From NCBI GenBank assembly GCA_026647565.1, contig JAPKGU010000006.1, positions 1 to 49,206 of the forward strand: 49,206 bases of DNA, written 5' to 3'. A program made the position numbers and the translations under genes. This DNA is from Phycisphaerales bacterium. GTDB taxonomy: Bacteria > Planctomycetota > Phycisphaerae > Phycisphaerales > UBA1924. This document shows, piece after piece, positions 9,306 to 24,360 of the stretch. Below the pieces are notes generated by a model. That model saw only the letters and a program-made list of their open reading frames with translations. It did not search any database and had not been told where the DNA came from. Positions within the stretch are counted from its first letter, which is position 1. Every line of letters starts with the position of its first letter.

Positions 9306-10898
9306 TCAGGGGTTCTTCGTCGCGCGTTGGTCGGCGGGGAGCGCGGGCGTCAGCTCTTTCAGGATGCGATCGACGGCGTCGAGCCGAGCGCGGAGCGCGG
9401 CGTTCTCCTGCCGCAGTTCCTCGAGCTTCTTGTCATTCGACTCGTTGGCGGCGCGGATTGCAGCGATCTCGGCGTCCTTCTCGGCCCGCAGGTCCCGCAG
9501 CGCCTCGACGGTGAGAGCCTCAAAGCCCGTGATCTGCAGCGTCTTCAGGCCGCTCGAGTCTGTGGCCACCCAGTCGGGGAAGACCGGTTCAACCTCCTGG
9601 GCGATAAAGCCCATGCACTGCCCCGCGCGGGCGCCGGGTATGTTGGGTTCGTTGTAGAAGAAGGTGTGCCCGCTGAGATCCATCAGCCGATCGAGCACGC
9701 CGGTCAGCGGCTCGATGTCGTGCTTCGCACGCGCGTCCGAGACGGTGGCCCAGATCGGCGCGCCGGTCTTGGCGGCCATGCCGTTGGACCGGAAGATGAA
9801 CTGCACCTGCCCGCCCGCCCGGACGATCAGGTCGTCGCCGGGAGGGGCATCGGCCCCGGGGTTGTCGCCGAGGTTGATGATGAGCTGTGAGTTGTCGGGC
9901 GAAGGGTTTTGGCGTTCGATAGATACCGGATCGCTGTTGTCGGTCGGGCTGCCGAATCGCAGCGACCCCGAGTCGATCCGCACATCGCCGTTGACATGCA
10001 CCCGGCTCTGCGCCGCGCCGTTGAGATTCACGCCGAGGAAGCCCGAATCGACCCGCACATCGCCCACGACATGCACGCGGCTCTGCGGAATTCCCGCGGT
10101 GTTCACGCCGAGGTTGTCGCGCACGACGAGGTCCTGGTACATGGTGGCATCGCCGAACACACGGGCTTGGCCGCCGATACCCAGATCGCCCGTGAAGACC
10201 CCGTCGCCGGCCACCGACAGCTTTGAGTTGGGAACTGACGTGCCGATCCCCACGTTGCCCATGGGATCGATTAGCATGCGAGCGGCGCCCGCGGTGCGAT
10301 CGATGATCTGGAAGGTCCCGGCCAGAAAGACGTCTCCCCCGGCGCTGCTCTGCAGCGTCCAGCGTCGCCCGCCATCGCCGCCGACAATCCCGATCTCGGT
10401 ATCCCCGGCGCTCCGAGCGACCTCAAACGCCGAGTTGGGCACTGTCGTGCCGATGCCGACATTGCCGCCGGAATAGGAGAGGTCGTTGCCCAGGGTGGCC
10501 CAGGGCGCCATCGAGAAAGTCGCGGCGGGCGCCGCGTTCATCGCCTGCCTGGGCGAGAGCGTCACTCCATTCACCGTGATCGCGAGCCAGCGGGCGTTCG
10601 GCCCGAATACGCCCGCACCAAAGTCGAGGGTAACGGTGAACACTCCGTTGCTGACCGCGACCGGCGGCGGGTTGTCGCCCACGCCATCGAACGTGAGCGT
10701 CGGCCCGACCTGGGTCCCCGCCGATACGGCATCCCACAACTTGAAGACCATCGGGAACGATCCGTTTGAGGGCACACCCGACTGCTCGAGCAGCCCCTGG
10801 TACGTGAACGCCGATCCGAGCGGCGTCTGCGCGGAAACGGTCGCGGCGAACGCGCACAGTGCGAAGAACAACTTCAAACCTAAGCACAGGCCTTTCAT
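9306..10898 (-). CDS. Secreted protein with C-terminal S74 intramolecular chaperone domain
   Basis: 530 residues. An N-terminal signal peptide (about 1-23, LKLFFALCAFAATVSA) precedes a beta domain starting TPLGSAFTYQGLLEQSG. The middle (about 145-310) is a series of beta-helix-like repeats with the motif NVGIGTxxPNSxLxVAGD. The S74 domain begins near 385 with ATVSDARAKHDIEPL, which retains the Ser and Lys of the autoproteolytic dyad, followed by TFFYNEP and CMGFIAQEVEPVFPDWV. The final 60 residues form a coiled coil (DKKLEELRQENAALRARL). In phage tailspikes this domain trimerises the fibre and then cleaves itself off. Here no phage genes are nearby; a trimeric surface fibre is likely. AAGGAG precedes the ATG. 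Confidence 0.88.
   Translation of the reverse strand: MKGLCLGLKLFFALCAFAATVSAQTPLGSAFTYQGLLEQSGVPSNGSFPMVFKLWDAVSAGTQVGPTLTFDGVGDNPPPVAVSNGVFTVTLDFGAGVFGPNARWLAITVNGVTLSPRQAMNAAPAATFSMAPWATLGNDLSYSGGNVGIGTTVPNSAFEVARSAGDTEIGIVGGDGGRRWTLQSSAGGDVFLAGTFQIIDRTAGAARMLIDPMGNVGIGTSVPNSKLSVAGDGVFTGDLGIGGQARVFGDATMYQDLVVRDNLGVNTAGIPQSRVHVVGDVRVDSGFLGVNLNGAAQSRVHVNGDVRIDSGSLRFGSPTDNSDPVSIERQNPSPDNSQLIINLGDNPGADAPPGDDLIVRAGGQVQFIFRSNGMAAKTGAPIWATVSDARAKHDIEPLTGVLDRLMDLSGHTFFYNEPNIPGARAGQCMGFIAQEVEPVFPDWVATDSSGLKTLQITGFEALTVEALRDLRAEKDAEIAAIRAANESNDKKLEELRQENAALRARLDAVDRILKELTPALPADQRATKNP
9969..10112. repeat. Two imperfect 69-bp direct repeats (75-bp period) inside the S74-protein gene
   Basis: Positions 9969-10037 and 10044-10112 align closely, with shared blocks such as cgcacatcgcc, gacatgcac and ttcacgccgagg. 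They encode successive 25-residue fibre repeats of the form SRVHVxGDVRxDSG-x2-LGVN. This shows the shaft grows by unit duplication. Confidence 0.7.
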
Positions 10899-20276: not shown

Positions 20277-21710
20277 TCAGACGCGAGCAGGTCCGAGAAG
20301 CGATTCGGGCTCCTGGAGGAGGCGAACGATCTCGGCGAGGGCGAGGGCGGCGGTCGCGCCGTCGACGACTCGATGGTCGCAGGCAAGGGAGAGGGGCATG
20401 AGCTTGCCGACGAACATGCCTCCGTTGCGGACGACGACACCCTCGCGTGTGCGGCCGACGGCGAGGATGCCGACCTCGGGGTAGTTGATGACGGGGGTGG
20501 CGAAGCGGCCGGCGTATGAGCCGACGTTCGTGATCGTGAAGGTTGATCCCATCAGCTGGTCGCGGGAGATGGAACGGTCGCGAGCGGACGCGGCGATCTG
20601 GTTGACGTGGCGGCCGATCTCGAGGACCCCGAGGGCGTCGCAGTCGCGGACGACGGGGACCATGAGGCCGTTCTCGGTGTCGGTGGCGATGCCCATGTGG
20701 ATCGCGCGGTGCTGGATGATCTCCTCGTTGGCGTCGTCGGTCGTGCTGTTGAGCACGCGGAACTGGTCCATCGAGAGCGTGCGGCAGACGGCGGCGCAGA
20801 CGAAGGGGAGGAAGGAGACCTTCTCGCCGGACGCGGCGGCAAGCTTCTTGCGGAGGGTGTCGAGCGCGGAGACATCGGCCTCGTCCATGACGTTGAAGTG
20901 GACGGCCTGGTTGACGGATTCGCGAAGGCGGTTGGCGATGGTGCGGCGGACGCCCCGGAAGGGGATGCGCGTGACGCCTTCGCCGGGGGCGAAGGCCACG
21001 GCGGGGCGGGGTGCGGGGGTCGGAGCCGATGCGCGAGCGGGCGCGGCCGGTGCGGGTGTGCGTGCGGCGGGCGATGGGGTCCGCGAGGTCGGAGTCGTGG
21101 AAGCGGCGGGGAGGGACGGCTGGCCCATTCCACAGGATGCGCCACCGGATGCGGCGGCGCGGACGTCCTTCTCGGTGACGCGGCCGCCGATGCCGGAGCC
21201 GCTGACGCGATCGATGTCGATGTTCAGATCGCGGGCGAGGCGGCGGACGGCGGGGGTCGCGAGGGCTTTGCCCGGAGCGGCGGACATGCCAGCGAGTTCG
21301 CCGGACATCTTGCCGACGACGGTGCCGGCGTCCTCGCGGTGCGCGGGTTCGGCGGGCTCGGCGTGAGCGCCGTTGGCGTGGCCCGAGGATGCGGGCGCGG
21401 GCTTGGTCGGAGATGGGGATGCCTTGGGGGCGGGCTTGGATTCCGCGGCGCTGTCACCCACATATGAGACGAGCGGATTGCCGACGTGGAGGATCTCACC
21501 CTCGGAGCCGTGGAGCGTCGCGATGGTGCCGGCGCGGGGGCTGGGGACCTCGACGAGGGCCTTGTCGGTCTCCATCTCAGCGAGGATGTCGTGCTCGGCG
21601 ACGGTCTGGCCGACCTGGACGCGCCACTTGATGAGTTCGGCCTCGTGCACACCCTCGCCGAGGTCGGGGAGGATGAAGACGTTCGGGTCGGCGGACTTCT
21701 GATGCGCCAT
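20277..21710 (-). CDS. pdhC: 2-oxoacid dehydrogenase E2, dihydrolipoyl acyltransferase
   Basis: 477 residues. Lipoyl domain 13-90 with the lipoylated Lys50 in EMETDKALVEV; an Ala/Pro/Ser linker; the E1/E3-binding domain about 150-190 (TPAVRRLARDLNID, GIGGRVTEKDV); a second Ala/Pro linker; and the catalytic domain about 245-477 ending with the active-site motif DHRVVDG (His about 446). Only one lipoyl domain. GGAG lies 6 nt before the ATG. It is the last gene of an operon with E1alpha and E1beta, but a foreign-looking element separates it from E1beta. Acetyl versus branched-chain acyl specificity cannot be read from the sequence. Confidence 0.93.
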   Translation of the reverse strand: MAHQKSADPNVFILPDLGEGVHEAELIKWRVQVGQTVAEHDILAEMETDKALVEVPSPRAGTIATLHGSEGEILHVGNPLVSYVGDSAAESKPAPKASPSPTKPAPASSGHANGAHAEPAEPAHREDAGTVVGKMSGELAGMSAAPGKALATPAVRRLARDLNIDIDRVSGSGIGGRVTEKDVRAAASGGASCGMGQPSLPAASTTPTSRTPSPAARTPAPAAPARASAPTPAPRPAVAFAPGEGVTRIPFRGVRRTIANRLRESVNQAVHFNVMDEADVSALDTLRKKLAAASGEKVSFLPFVCAAVCRTLSMDQFRVLNSTTDDANEEIIQHRAIHMGIATDTENGLMVPVVRDCDALGVLEIGRHVNQIAASARDRSISRDQLMGSTFTITNVGSYAGRFATPVINYPEVGILAVGRTREGVVVRNGGMFVGKLMPLSLACDHRVVDGATAALALAEIVRLLQEPESLLGPARV

Positions 21711-21720
21711 GGGGAACTCC

Positions 21721-22179
21721 AAATAGCAAATAGCAAAGGGCCAAATGGCAAACTGAGTCAGGTGGCGGAAAGGTCGTTGCGACGGGTGCGGTGGATGATG
21801 GCTCCGATGATCTTTCGGAGTTCGGCGGACTCGGACGAAAGGCCGGCTATTCGGGATTCATCGATCCACTTCCTGTGAACCACGAAGCGGAACCAGTATC
21901 GCAACTCGGCGAGTTCCTTGAGCACGATCGCGAGGCATTTGCAGAAGTCCTTGCGGCTCATTGCTTCATCGGCTTCCGCGGTGTTCGCCCCGACTGATGT
22001 GCCGGCACCATAGATCTGATCCACAACTCGGCGAGACTTTCCCGTCGTTTCAACGGCATCGGCGAGGTCAGCCGCGCGATGGCTGAAAGCTTCGATGCGA
22101 TCAACGAGTTCGGGTGGAAGTCGTCCCATTCGTGTCAGATCCGAGGTTTGCTATCTGGCCCTTTGCCATTTGCGATCTG
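21721..22179. mobile_element. Inverted-repeat-bounded mini-element carrying a four-helix-bundle gene
   Basis: The left end (21721-21752) and right end (22147-22178) are inverted copies matching at 27 of 32 positions. Each is built from TTTGCYATY-like heptads around a central TGGCCCTTTGC. Between them is only the four-helix gene. The element starts directly at the ribosome site of the E2 gene and ends 2 bp from the E1beta stop codon, so it fills the E1beta-E2 junction exactly without disrupting either gene. No target duplication is evident. Confidence 0.6.
21758..22129 (-). CDS. Four-helix-bundle protein of the 23S rRNA intervening-sequence (S23/IVP) family
   Basis: 123 residues, all helical. 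Family landmarks: Phe-rich first helix (RIEAFSHRAADLADA), RRVVDQIYGAGTSVGANTAEAD at the second helix junction (S-x-G-A-N-x-A-E), KDFCKCLAIVLKELAELRYW in the third and SESAELRKIIGAI in the fourth. Related proteins are encoded in intervening sequences of bacterial 23S rRNA genes and resemble the Avd protein of diversity-generating retroelements. They bind nucleic acid, but the function of free-standing copies is unknown. The gene is flanked by inverted repeats at 5 and 17 bp and is co-oriented with the host operon. Confidence 0.9.
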   Translation of the reverse strand: MGRLPPELVDRIEAFSHRAADLADAVETTGKSRRVVDQIYGAGTSVGANTAEADEAMSRKDFCKCLAIVLKELAELRYWFRFVVHRKWIDESRIAGLSSESAELRKIIGAIIHRTRRNDLSAT

Positions 22180-22181
22180 TT

Positions 22182-23180
22182 TCAGTACGAAAGCGTTTGG
22201 ACGATCGACTCGCCGATGCGTTCGGCGTTGGGGAGATACTCGAGTTCGAGCTTGTAGTACGGCATGACGGTGTCGAAACCGGCGACGCGCTGCACGGGGG
22301 CTTTGAGGTGCAGGAAGCAGTGTTCCTGGATGATGGCGGAGAGCTCGGCGCCCATGCCGCAGGTCTTGGGGGCTTCGTGAACGATCACGCAGCGGCCGGT
22401 CTTCTGCACGGACTGGATGATGGTGTCCTGGTCGATGGGATAGATCGTGCGGAGGTCGATGAGTTCTGCGGAGACATCTTCCGGGAGTTTGTCGAGCGCG
22501 GCGAGGCATTCGAAGACCGATGCGCCCCAGGAGACGACCGTGATGTCGGTGCCCTCTGAGACGACCTTGGCCTGGCCGATGGGGATGGTGTAGTCCTCTT
22601 CGGGGATCTGCTCGCGGTAGGAGCGGTAGACGCGCTTGGGCTCGAAGAAGACGACCGGATCGGGGTCGCGGATGGCGGCGAGGAGGAGGCCCTTCGCGTC
22701 ATAGGGCGTGCAGGGCATGACGACCTTGAGGCCGGGGGTGTGGGCGTAGATGGACTCGGGGGAGTCGGAGTGGAGTTCCGGGGCGTGGATGCCGCCACCG
22801 ACGGGAACGCGGACCGTCATGGGGACGGTGATGGCGCCGCGCGAGCGGGTGCGGTAGCGAGCGGCGTGGTTGGTGAGCTGGTCGTAGGCCGGGCCCATGA
22901 ATCCTTCGAACTGGATCTCGGGGATTGGGCGCATGCCGCCCATGGCCAGGCCGATGGCGGTGCCCATGATGCCGGACTCTGCGAGGGGTGTGTCGACGAC
23001 GCGGTCGGCGCCGAAGCGTTTCTGGAGGCCGTCGGTGACGCGGAAGACGCCGCCGTTCAGGCCGACGTCTTCGCCGAGACAGACCACGCGATCGTCGCGT
23101 TCCATCTCCTGGTAGAGGGCCTCGTTGATGGCGTCGACGAGGGTGAGGCCCTTCTCTTTCATCATTTCGGTGCGGGGCAT
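22182..23180 (-). CDS. pdhB: 2-oxoacid dehydrogenase E1 beta subunit
   Basis: 332 residues, family length. Transketolase-like pyrimidine-binding half with VCLGEDVGLNGGVFRVTDGL, DTPLAESGIMGTAIGLAMGG and IQFEGFMGPAYDQL; C-terminal half with YDAKGLLLAAIRDPDPVVFFEPKR, then DLRTIYPIDQDTI and VIVHEAPKTCG. Together with E1alpha it decarboxylates a 2-oxoacid on thiamine diphosphate and acylates the E2 lipoyl group. GGAG is 6 nt before the ATG. The E1alpha gene ends 55 bp upstream. Confidence 0.94.
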   Translation of the reverse strand: MPRTEMMKEKGLTLVDAINEALYQEMERDDRVVCLGEDVGLNGGVFRVTDGLQKRFGADRVVDTPLAESGIMGTAIGLAMGGMRPIPEIQFEGFMGPAYDQLTNHAARYRTRSRGAITVPMTVRVPVGGGIHAPELHSDSPESIYAHTPGLKVVMPCTPYDAKGLLLAAIRDPDPVVFFEPKRVYRSYREQIPEEDYTIPIGQAKVVSEGTDITVVSWGASVFECLAALDKLPEDVSAELIDLRTIYPIDQDTIIQSVQKTGRCVIVHEAPKTCGMGAELSAIIQEHCFLHLKAPVQRVAGFDTVMPYYKLELEYLPNAERIGESIVQTLSY

Positions 23181-23235: not shown

Positions 23236-24360
23236 TCAGTACGCTGTCGGCTCGGCGGCGAGGCCGGCCTGGGTCGGATCTTGTCCGAGCGAGCTGGTGC
23301 GCATGGTGCGCTTCTGGCGCTCGAGTTCCTCGGGGATCTCGGCGAAGGTGTAGTCGAAGATGTCGCTGATGAGGGGCTTCTCGATGGTCTCGGCGGCCTT
23401 GACGACGTCGGCGACGAAGATCTTGGCCTTCTCTTCGGCGGCCTTCTGCTTCTCGTCGGACCAAAGGTTCTTGCGCTCGAGGTACTTGCGGAGTCGGATC
23501 ATGGGGTCCTTGCCGACCCACGCGTCCACTTCCTTGGTGTCGCGGTAGCGGCGGGCGTCGTCGGCGGTGGTGTGGTCGGCGAGGCGGTAGGTGACGGCCT
23601 CGATGAAGGAGGGGCCGCCGCCCTGGCGGGCGCGCTCGATGGCATCCTTGCTGGCCTTGTGGACGGCGAGGAGGTCGTTGCCGTCGACCTGGATGGTTGG
23701 CATGTCGTAGGCGAGGGCCTTCTGCGCGACGGTGGCGGAGTTCATCTGCTGGTCACGCGGGACGCTGATGGCCCACTGGTTGTTCTGGCAGAAGAAGACG
23801 CAGGGGACCTGGAGGGTGGAGGCGAAGTTCATGGCCTCGTGGAAGTCGCCCTCGGAGGTAGCGCCGTCGCCGAAGTAGGTGATGGTGACGCGGGGCTCCT
23901 TCTTGAGCTTGAAGGCCCAGGCGATGCCGGTGGCGTGGAGCATCTGGGTGCCGATGGGGATGGAGAGGGGCGTCATGTTCACGCCCTCGGGGATCTGGTT
24001 GCCACGCTCGTCGCCCATCCAGTGGAGGAGGATGTAGTGCATGGGAAGACCGTGCAGGAAGAGCGCGGCGTTCTCGCGGTAGCAGGGGACGAGGAAGTCG
24101 ACGCCCTTCTTCGCGGCGTAGCCGGAGCCGACGGCGGCGGCTTCCTGGCCCTTGTTCTGCGGGTAGGTGCCCATGCGCCCGGAGCGCTGGAGCTTGAAGG
24201 CGATCTCGTCGAGCTGGCGGCAGTCGATCATGAACTGGTAAAGCTTCAGGATCTCCTCGTCGGAGAGCGTGTCTTTGGCCAGTTTGGCGTCGACGTGGCC
24301 CTCCTCGTCCATGATCTGGAGGTACTCAACGGACGCCGAATAGACGGTGCGGCTGGGCAT
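23236..24360 (-). CDS. pdhA: 2-oxoacid dehydrogenase E1 alpha subunit
   Basis: 374 residues. The thiamine-diphosphate motif begins GDGATSEGDFHEAMNFAS and ends about 30 residues later in FFCQNNQWAIS. LAYDMPTIQVDGNDLLAV and DHTTADDARRYR are the standard later blocks; the phosphorylation-loop region is bacterial. AGAGGAG stands 8 nt before the ATG. First gene of E1alpha-E1beta-[four-helix element]-E2. Sequence alone fits either pyruvate or branched-chain substrate. Neighbouring acyl-CoA dehydrogenase, enoyl-CoA hydratases and HMG-CoA lyase favour branched-chain 2-oxoacids (inference). No E3 gene is present in the window. Confidence 0.93.
   Translation of the reverse strand: MPSRTVYSASVEYLQIMDEEGHVDAKLAKDTLSDEEILKLYQFMIDCRQLDEIAFKLQRSGRMGTYPQNKGQEAAAVGSGYAAKKGVDFLVPCYRENAALFLHGLPMHYILLHWMGDERGNQIPEGVNMTPLSIPIGTQMLHATGIAWAFKLKKEPRVTITYFGDGATSEGDFHEAMNFASTLQVPCVFFCQNNQWAISVPRDQQMNSATVAQKALAYDMPTIQVDGNDLLAVHKASKDAIERARQGGGPSFIEAVTYRLADHTTADDARRYRDTKEVDAWVGKDPMIRLRKYLERKNLWSDEKQKAAEEKAKIFVADVVKAAETIEKPLISDIFDYTFAEIPEELERQKRTMRTSSLGQDPTQAGLAAEPTAY

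Follow-up and report, generated by a model that had tools for sequence, protein, structure and literature searches.

We examined a stretch of 49,206 nt from a Phycisphaerales bacterium (contig JAPKGU010000006.1, positions 1 to 49,206 of the forward strand; hereafter the window, to which all coordinates refer). Its minus strand carries the E1alpha-E1beta-E2 operon of a 2-oxoacid dehydrogenase, and between E1beta and E2 lies a gene of the IVP/S23 family, framed by two inverted arrays of a degenerate heptad. Gene and arrays together are called the cassette. The features of the locus, in operon order, are as follows:

23236..24360, minus strand: E1alpha, the first dehydrogenase gene of the operon, given for context.
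22182..23180, minus strand: E1beta, transketolase-like, the operon gene upstream of the cassette, with 2 nt between its stop codon and the cassette.
22146..22179, minus strand: 5' arm, an array of degenerate CAAATGG-type heptads, reading CAGATCGCAAATGGCAAAGGGCCAGATAGCAAAC on the strand of the IVP gene.
21758..22129, minus strand: IVP/S23 gene, 123 amino acids, a predicted four-helix bundle.
21720..21753, minus strand: 3' arm, the heptad array in inverted orientation, reading GTTTGCCATTTGGCCCTTTGCTATTTGCTATTTG on the strand of the IVP gene.
20277..21710, minus strand: E2 (lipoyl, E3-binding and acyltransferase domains), the downstream operon gene, with its ATG at 21710.

The two arms form an inverted repeat of 34 nt (21720-21753 and 22146-22179; 85% complementary, 392 nt apart), with an alignment score of 43 against a maximum of 27 in 100 shuffles of the flanks. 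A preliminary description of this DNA had reported 32-bp inverted repeats matching at 27 of 32 positions and made of TTTGCYATY units. The match was essentially right; the unit is not a 9-mer and reads as a degenerate heptad of the CAAATGG / TTTGCYA type. The same description placed an IVS-type (intervening sequence-type) gene between the E1beta stop codon and the E2 ribosome site, in the same direction, and coordinates and domain matches agree with this: E1beta carries Transket_pyr and Transketolase_C, E2 carries Biotin_lipoyl, E3_binding and 2-oxoacid_dh, and the 3' arm reaches one base into the E2 ribosome site, GGAG. The observation reported at this locus is confirmed. The arms consist of tandem 7-nt units in intergenic DNA, as do STRR-type arrays. 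Only two period-7 arrays scoring at least 30 overlap the interval from 17 to 28 kb, and the one other than the cassette's (27596) falls within coding sequence. The IVP open reading frame (ORF) is the sole gene of the cassette; with no transposase in the unit, the cassette departs from DDE insertion sequences and miniature inverted-repeat transposable elements (MITEs).

The encoded protein matches the profiles PF05635 (23S_rRNA_IVP; E 4.5e-15, 56.2 bits against a cut-off of 33.8) and TIGR02436 ("four helix bundle protein"; E 9.3e-20, 70.9 bits against a cut-off of 24), and its predicted structure is a confident four-helix bundle (pLDDT 95.7). Scoring above both curated cut-offs and having the four-helix bundle fold, it is a member of PF05635/TIGR02436. 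Fold comparison ranks 2rld (Z 17.1) and 2gsc (Z 16.0) first and Avd (4dwl, Z 13.3) next. Both 2rld and 2gsc were deposited with five chains, and the title of the 2gsc paper, as cited in PMC10053308, speaks of an assembly of five four-helix bundles. The IVP protein is probably a pentamer.

The cassette is not fixed at its site. Among 61 relatives compared (genomes, contigs and loci bear G, C and L numbers, the source genome being G000), G001, of the same genus, has a cassette at the same E1beta-E2 place, with an IVP protein 93% identical. Two further members of the genus lack it: in G002 the two genes are 72 bp apart, and in G003 they are separated by an unrelated spacer of about 300 bp. This spacer (L065) holds a small ORF that resembles a membrane protein and has no relation to the IVP cassette. 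Where E2 stands close behind E1beta in the other genera examined, no IVP was found between the two. The earlier interpretation is partly supported. Its small, transposase-free mobile cassette stands, and fixation at this site, one of the two findings that would have spoken against it, does not hold. In two other genera, gene-less octamer arrays directly follow the E1beta stop codon, with units CCGGAGTA/CCGAAGTA in G015 (L075) and GTGACGGA in G021 (L083).

The repeat-framed design extends well beyond this locus. We aligned each upstream flank with the reverse-complemented downstream flank at 219 IVP loci, comprising 139 loci of the phylum and 80 named loci from Bacteroidota, the candidate phyla radiation (CPR), Chloroflexi, Proteobacteria, Acidobacteria, Clostridia and others, and took as threshold the 99th percentile of flanks mispaired between genomes. 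Inverted arms well above mispaired flanks were found at 130 of the 219 loci. The median arm score was 34 in the phylum, against 17 for randomly paired flanks (87/139 above threshold), and 31.5 against 17 at the named loci (43/80); none of 29 E1beta control genes passed. When the best tandem period was sought within 4 to 12, the 87 phylum arms gave 7 in 58 cases, 8 in 22 and 9 in 7, and their lag-7 autocorrelation was 0.48, compared to 0.29 after shuffling; at the named loci the period was 7 in 31 and 8 in 10. Over all 130 cassettes, periods of 7 (89), 8 (32) and 9 (7) were obtained, with a pooled median of 5.1-5.25 repeat units per arm.

The source genome itself holds a second IVP gene, likewise framed by repeats of the same kind; this gene and the IVPs of many phyla bear out the expectation that such repeats surround other copies. 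On cyanobacterial plasmids the arms are built of GTAGGGA, AACAGGG, AGGTGAC, GGGTGTA and other units, and a Nostoc edaphicum plasmid, for instance, has five GTAGGGA-type units to either side of the IVP gene; some other cyanobacterial plasmid IVPs have no clear arms. At four loci (L096, L124, L144 and L146) a direct-orientation array follows the IVP stop codon and precedes the inverted array, so that the 3' end is itself a hairpin and resembles the mini-elements described below. For nine arm-less or weak IVP loci we considered a location in rRNA and rejected it, as no Rfam match was obtained.

Although the design is shared, the unit sequence varies from cassette to cassette. Pairs of IVPs more than 70% identical have similar arms, across genomes too (0.71 against 0.28 for a reversed control); for some of these pairs, unit sharing is expected by descent because they are orthologous insertions. 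The arm similarity of different IVPs was 0.23 within a genome and 0.22 between genomes. Among nearest IVP neighbours below 70% identity, the period was shared at a rate of 0.695, compared to 0.548 with shuffled labels, and none of 300 shuffles reached as high a value. Sequence comparison thus indicates that the repeat unit belongs to the IVP protein and not to the genome, as would be expected of a protein that recognises the ends of its own cassette. The governing rule is the period of 7-8 nt, with a unit that varies freely and is specific to the protein, and not the particular sequence TTTGCYATY.

Cassettes occupy a characteristic position. With neighbour strands called from the amino-acid composition of open frames and junction identities read from protein ends, the upstream neighbour was co-directional at 82 of 85 phylum loci and both neighbours at 72 of 84; both were co-directional at 47 of 51 named loci. 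Exceptions occur on the plasmids of Nostoc edaphicum and Calothrix PCC 7716, where the IVP gene is antisense to its neighbours. Most 5' arms start no more than about 20 nt behind the stop codon of the upstream gene. Junctions in core operons recur, namely pyruvate dehydrogenase (PDH) E1beta-E2 (also in Thiobacillus), thiolase-acyl-CoA dehydrogenase, SdhA-SdhB, NuoC-NuoD, GroES-GroEL, ATP synthase, FabH-FabD and CysC-CysQ. The CysC-CysQ cassettes of the source genome and G009 are likely orthologous (68%). Simple orthology was rejected for the PDH E1beta-E2 cassettes of G009, G006 and G016: these are not mutual nearest relatives, so the junction was probably hit repeatedly. CRISPR-Cas operons are also recurrent hosts (L328, L332, L162, L184, L106, L114 and L163), with annotated cas6-IVP-cas4 orders on Pseudanabaena and Anabaena plasmids; as read by eye from protein ends, two genomes of the phylum have a probable cas4-IVP-cas1 order and an IVP clade with 9-nt units stands behind a probable cas6. 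We also considered a role of the arrays as a stop-codon barrier, given that 7 and 8 are coprime with 3, and rejected it: TGA and TAA are near shuffled levels and 39 of the 130 5' arms contain no stop triplet. TAG is enriched in 5' arms relative to shuffles.

This placement, with arrays in sense orientation just past stop codons or just ahead of start codons of core operons, is what one would see if the IVP protein were part of a host regulatory module, binding mRNAs at heptad arrays close to stop and start codons and tuning translation or mRNA stability of its own operon and of genes with solo arrays, with the arrays as its regulon. A post-transcriptional regulator was indeed proposed by MacGregor in 2015 for TAACTGA repeats (PMC4679880). 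However, host operons and units vary by genome, a conserved regulon was not seen, and close relatives without the cassette show no other change. We therefore regard a regulatory module as an unlikely account of the cassettes; a regulatory role and mobility could be compatible.

Arrays also occur without a gene. The window's unit gave 38 pattern matches as dispersed arrays in the source genome and none for the reversed control. Among IVP-positive genomes, 8 of 12 contain arrays of this unit (at least 4 matches); among IVP-negative ones, 1 of 25 does (p=1e-4, without phylogenetic correction). The Nostoc plasmid pNe_5 has 15 matches to the unit of its own IVP, compared to 1 on 11 other plasmids together. 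In G013 and G009, inverted array pairs enclose about 20-120 nt and no gene, like mini-elements, and some share an inner AATCAGAG motif with the second cassette of the source genome. An element of about 135 bp that bears an array recurs, nearly identical, at three unrelated sites of G001 (L293, L294 and L298); at two of the three, further short-period repeats follow. Hairpin mini-elements were noted at L304, L305, L306, L307 and L308, some of them directly behind stop codons, and at L308 the 3' half is duplicated. Bases 1-110 of contig C46 of the source genome (L026) consist of fourteen heptads at the extreme contig end, and the assembly therefore probably breaks at heptad arrays. Elsewhere in the window, positions 9967-10113 hold a 75-bp tandem repeat in two copies with 78% matches.

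Solo arrays are common in these genomes, also away from any IVP gene, as expected if heptamer arrays were plain slippage products of intergenic DNA that an IVP gene adjoins by accident. We give this idea very little credence, since the same unit lies inverted on both sides of the gene at scores far above those of mispaired flanks, the unit is tied to protein identity, and the period is confined to 7-9 nt.

Several comparisons point to movement. In G093 (L201; C1, about 102 kb), a cassette with AGGCACGG octads sits inside dnaE, in a variable loop, and the dnaE frame stays open throughout: the ORF measures 1360 amino acids, compared to 1139 in G026 (L205) of the same genus, where the loop is empty. 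The gene hosting this insertion, dnaE, is essential. An MmeI-like gene of G142 (L100) contains an in-frame IVP cassette in the same manner. G070 has, at two unrelated sites, IVPs that are 94% identical and share their unit, and the main block of homology comprises the arms and the gene only. IVPs 81% identical were found in different genera, one at FabH-FabD and one between two ketosynthase (KAS) genes. Finally, 3 nt past a stop codon, G001 has an insertion of 99 bp with a heptad array at its end; it is absent from G003, whose flanks are 95-96% identical. The window's own site is too diverged for base-exact junction comparison. Empty sites, near-identical copies at two sites and the in-frame dnaE insertion support the reading of a small mobile cassette.

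Some observations weigh against mobility driven by the IVP protein. Arms above threshold are lacking at 89 of the 219 loci, through decay, short arms or another biology. The association between IVP genes and arrays comes from 37 genomes searched for both, with a p value that ignores their kinship; G017 has arrays of the window's unit and no detected IVP gene; and the matches on pNe_5 lie clustered in some 6 kb. No target-site duplication is visible at the single sharp junction, that of the 99-bp insertion of G001 against the empty site of G003.

The preliminary description had also suggested a possible effect of the cassette on E1beta/E2 mRNA processing, and movement through RNA. If it moved through RNA, the cassette would behave as an IVS-like RNA element, whose arms pair in the transcript and are cut by RNase III, and which is copied back by a reverse transcriptase (RT) with help from the Avd-like protein. 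In its predicted fold the sense RNA of the cassette is closed by a stem of the two arms (z -4.7), the protein belongs to the family of rRNA IVS proteins and resembles Avd in fold at the Z score given above, and cassettes lie in sense orientation within operons. Yet arm mismatches show no bias towards pairs tolerated in the sense RNA (158 G-U against 141 A-C, p=0.35), and 12 of 21 IVP-positive relatives, including the array-rich G009 and G013, have no RT detectable with PF00078. Selection on an RNA stem through wobble asymmetry was therefore dropped, an early hint of 125 against 99 having faded as loci were added, and dependence on an RT was rejected as well, the association of IVP with RT being non-significant (p=0.24). 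The source genome has a single PF00078 match, on another contig (G000:C28:5427-6122, L289), which resembles a group II intron protein. The mismatch counts and the RT-free relatives speak against a passage through RNA, and an RNA element of this kind appears quite improbable to us.

We consider it likely that the cassette is a small mobile element, made of an S23/IVP gene and inverted arrays of about five 7-nt units (7-9 nt in relatives), whose protein would recognise its own repeat ends. The pentamer may bind the tandem units with one unit per subunit, as the TRAP protein does, and one unit per subunit would explain the fixed period, the free sequence and the number of about five units per arm. 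Binding to the repeats might let the IVP protein mobilise the cassette that encodes it and also act in trans on gene-less arrays. Insertions would persist at transcribed positions where they do no harm: between co-directional genes of an operon, just behind a stop codon and ahead of the following ribosome site, or within an ORF, at a loop that tolerates them and leaves the frame open. A spacing of 7-8 nt does not match one face of the double helix, hence our guess of a single-stranded DNA or RNA intermediate. More tentatively, and with some doubt, we suggest that S23/IVP cassettes may form a separate and very widespread mobile class, with array ends read by a cognate pentamer and without DDE, Y1 or RT chemistry, whose gene-less derivatives give rise to many of the unexplained heptamer repeats in the intergenic DNA of prokaryotes.

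For decades the S23/IVP family has been familiar from the intervening sequences of rRNA, with no agreed function or mode of movement (PMC4990558). With the rRNA IVS of Leptospira and Coxiella the cassettes share a PF05635 protein, terminal inverted repeats and small size. Those IVS, with a 28-bp stem in Coxiella, are patchy and horizontally acquired, and have been called selfish, their functionality and origin being unclear (PMC4990558). The window's cassette has the classical S23 ORF enclosed by terminal inverted repeats, but it lies between the protein genes E1beta and E2 and not inside a 23S or 16S rRNA gene. The cassettes may also differ in their arms, which are 7-8-nt tandem arrays with a cassette-specific unit, and they have gene-less mini-elements and solo arrays beside them. 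Avd of diversity-generating retroelements has the same fold and is likely homologous with PF05635 (PMC10053308). Unlike those retroelements, the locus has no RT, template repeat or variable repeat, and its neighbours are E1beta and E2.

Repetitive extragenic palindromes with their associated transposases (REP/RAYT systems) and MITEs are small inverted-repeat elements dispersed through intergenic DNA in gene-bearing and gene-less forms, and in this they resemble the cassettes. However, the cassettes have no Y1 or DDE transposase, and their ends are built of tandem arrays where those systems have an invariant palindrome or terminal sequence. In the trp RNA-binding attenuation protein (TRAP), a ring is matched to evenly spaced short repeats. 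The period, the unit count and the five-chain relatives suggest a similar pairing of ring and repeats for IVP, by analogy; the proteins are unrelated, and binding by IVP is hypothetical.

The arms also resemble the heptamer repeats of the literature, which are 7-nt units in few copies, intergenic and near start or stop codons (PMC4679880, PMC4692102). Examples are TAACTGA in Beggiatoaceae, Cyanobacteria and Bacteroidetes (PMC4679880), and GGGAATC in Xanthomonas and GGGGA(T/C)T in Nostoc (PMC4692102). TAACTGA was reported forward before starts, with one reverse set after a stop (PMC4679880), an orientation that agrees with the arm rule of the cassettes, and the L278 arm carries its reverse complement, TCAGTTA. 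These repeats differ in having been described without a linked gene, and "no mechanism is evident" (PMC4679880); in the SPADE survey, tandem heptamers were most abundant in intergenic regions, with no clue to function (PMC6344855). Among the open-access papers searched, we found none that links S23/IVP with heptamer repeats. MacGregor considered that a protein binding the repeats might itself be the mobile element, and S23/IVP is a concrete candidate for that protein; IVP cassettes are likewise a candidate origin of the 7-letter repeats that lie, unexplained, across bacterial genomes. Two old puzzles, the function and movement of S23/IVP and the heptamer repeats, may share one answer, and IVP genes framed by their own heptad arrays are the link that makes both directly testable.
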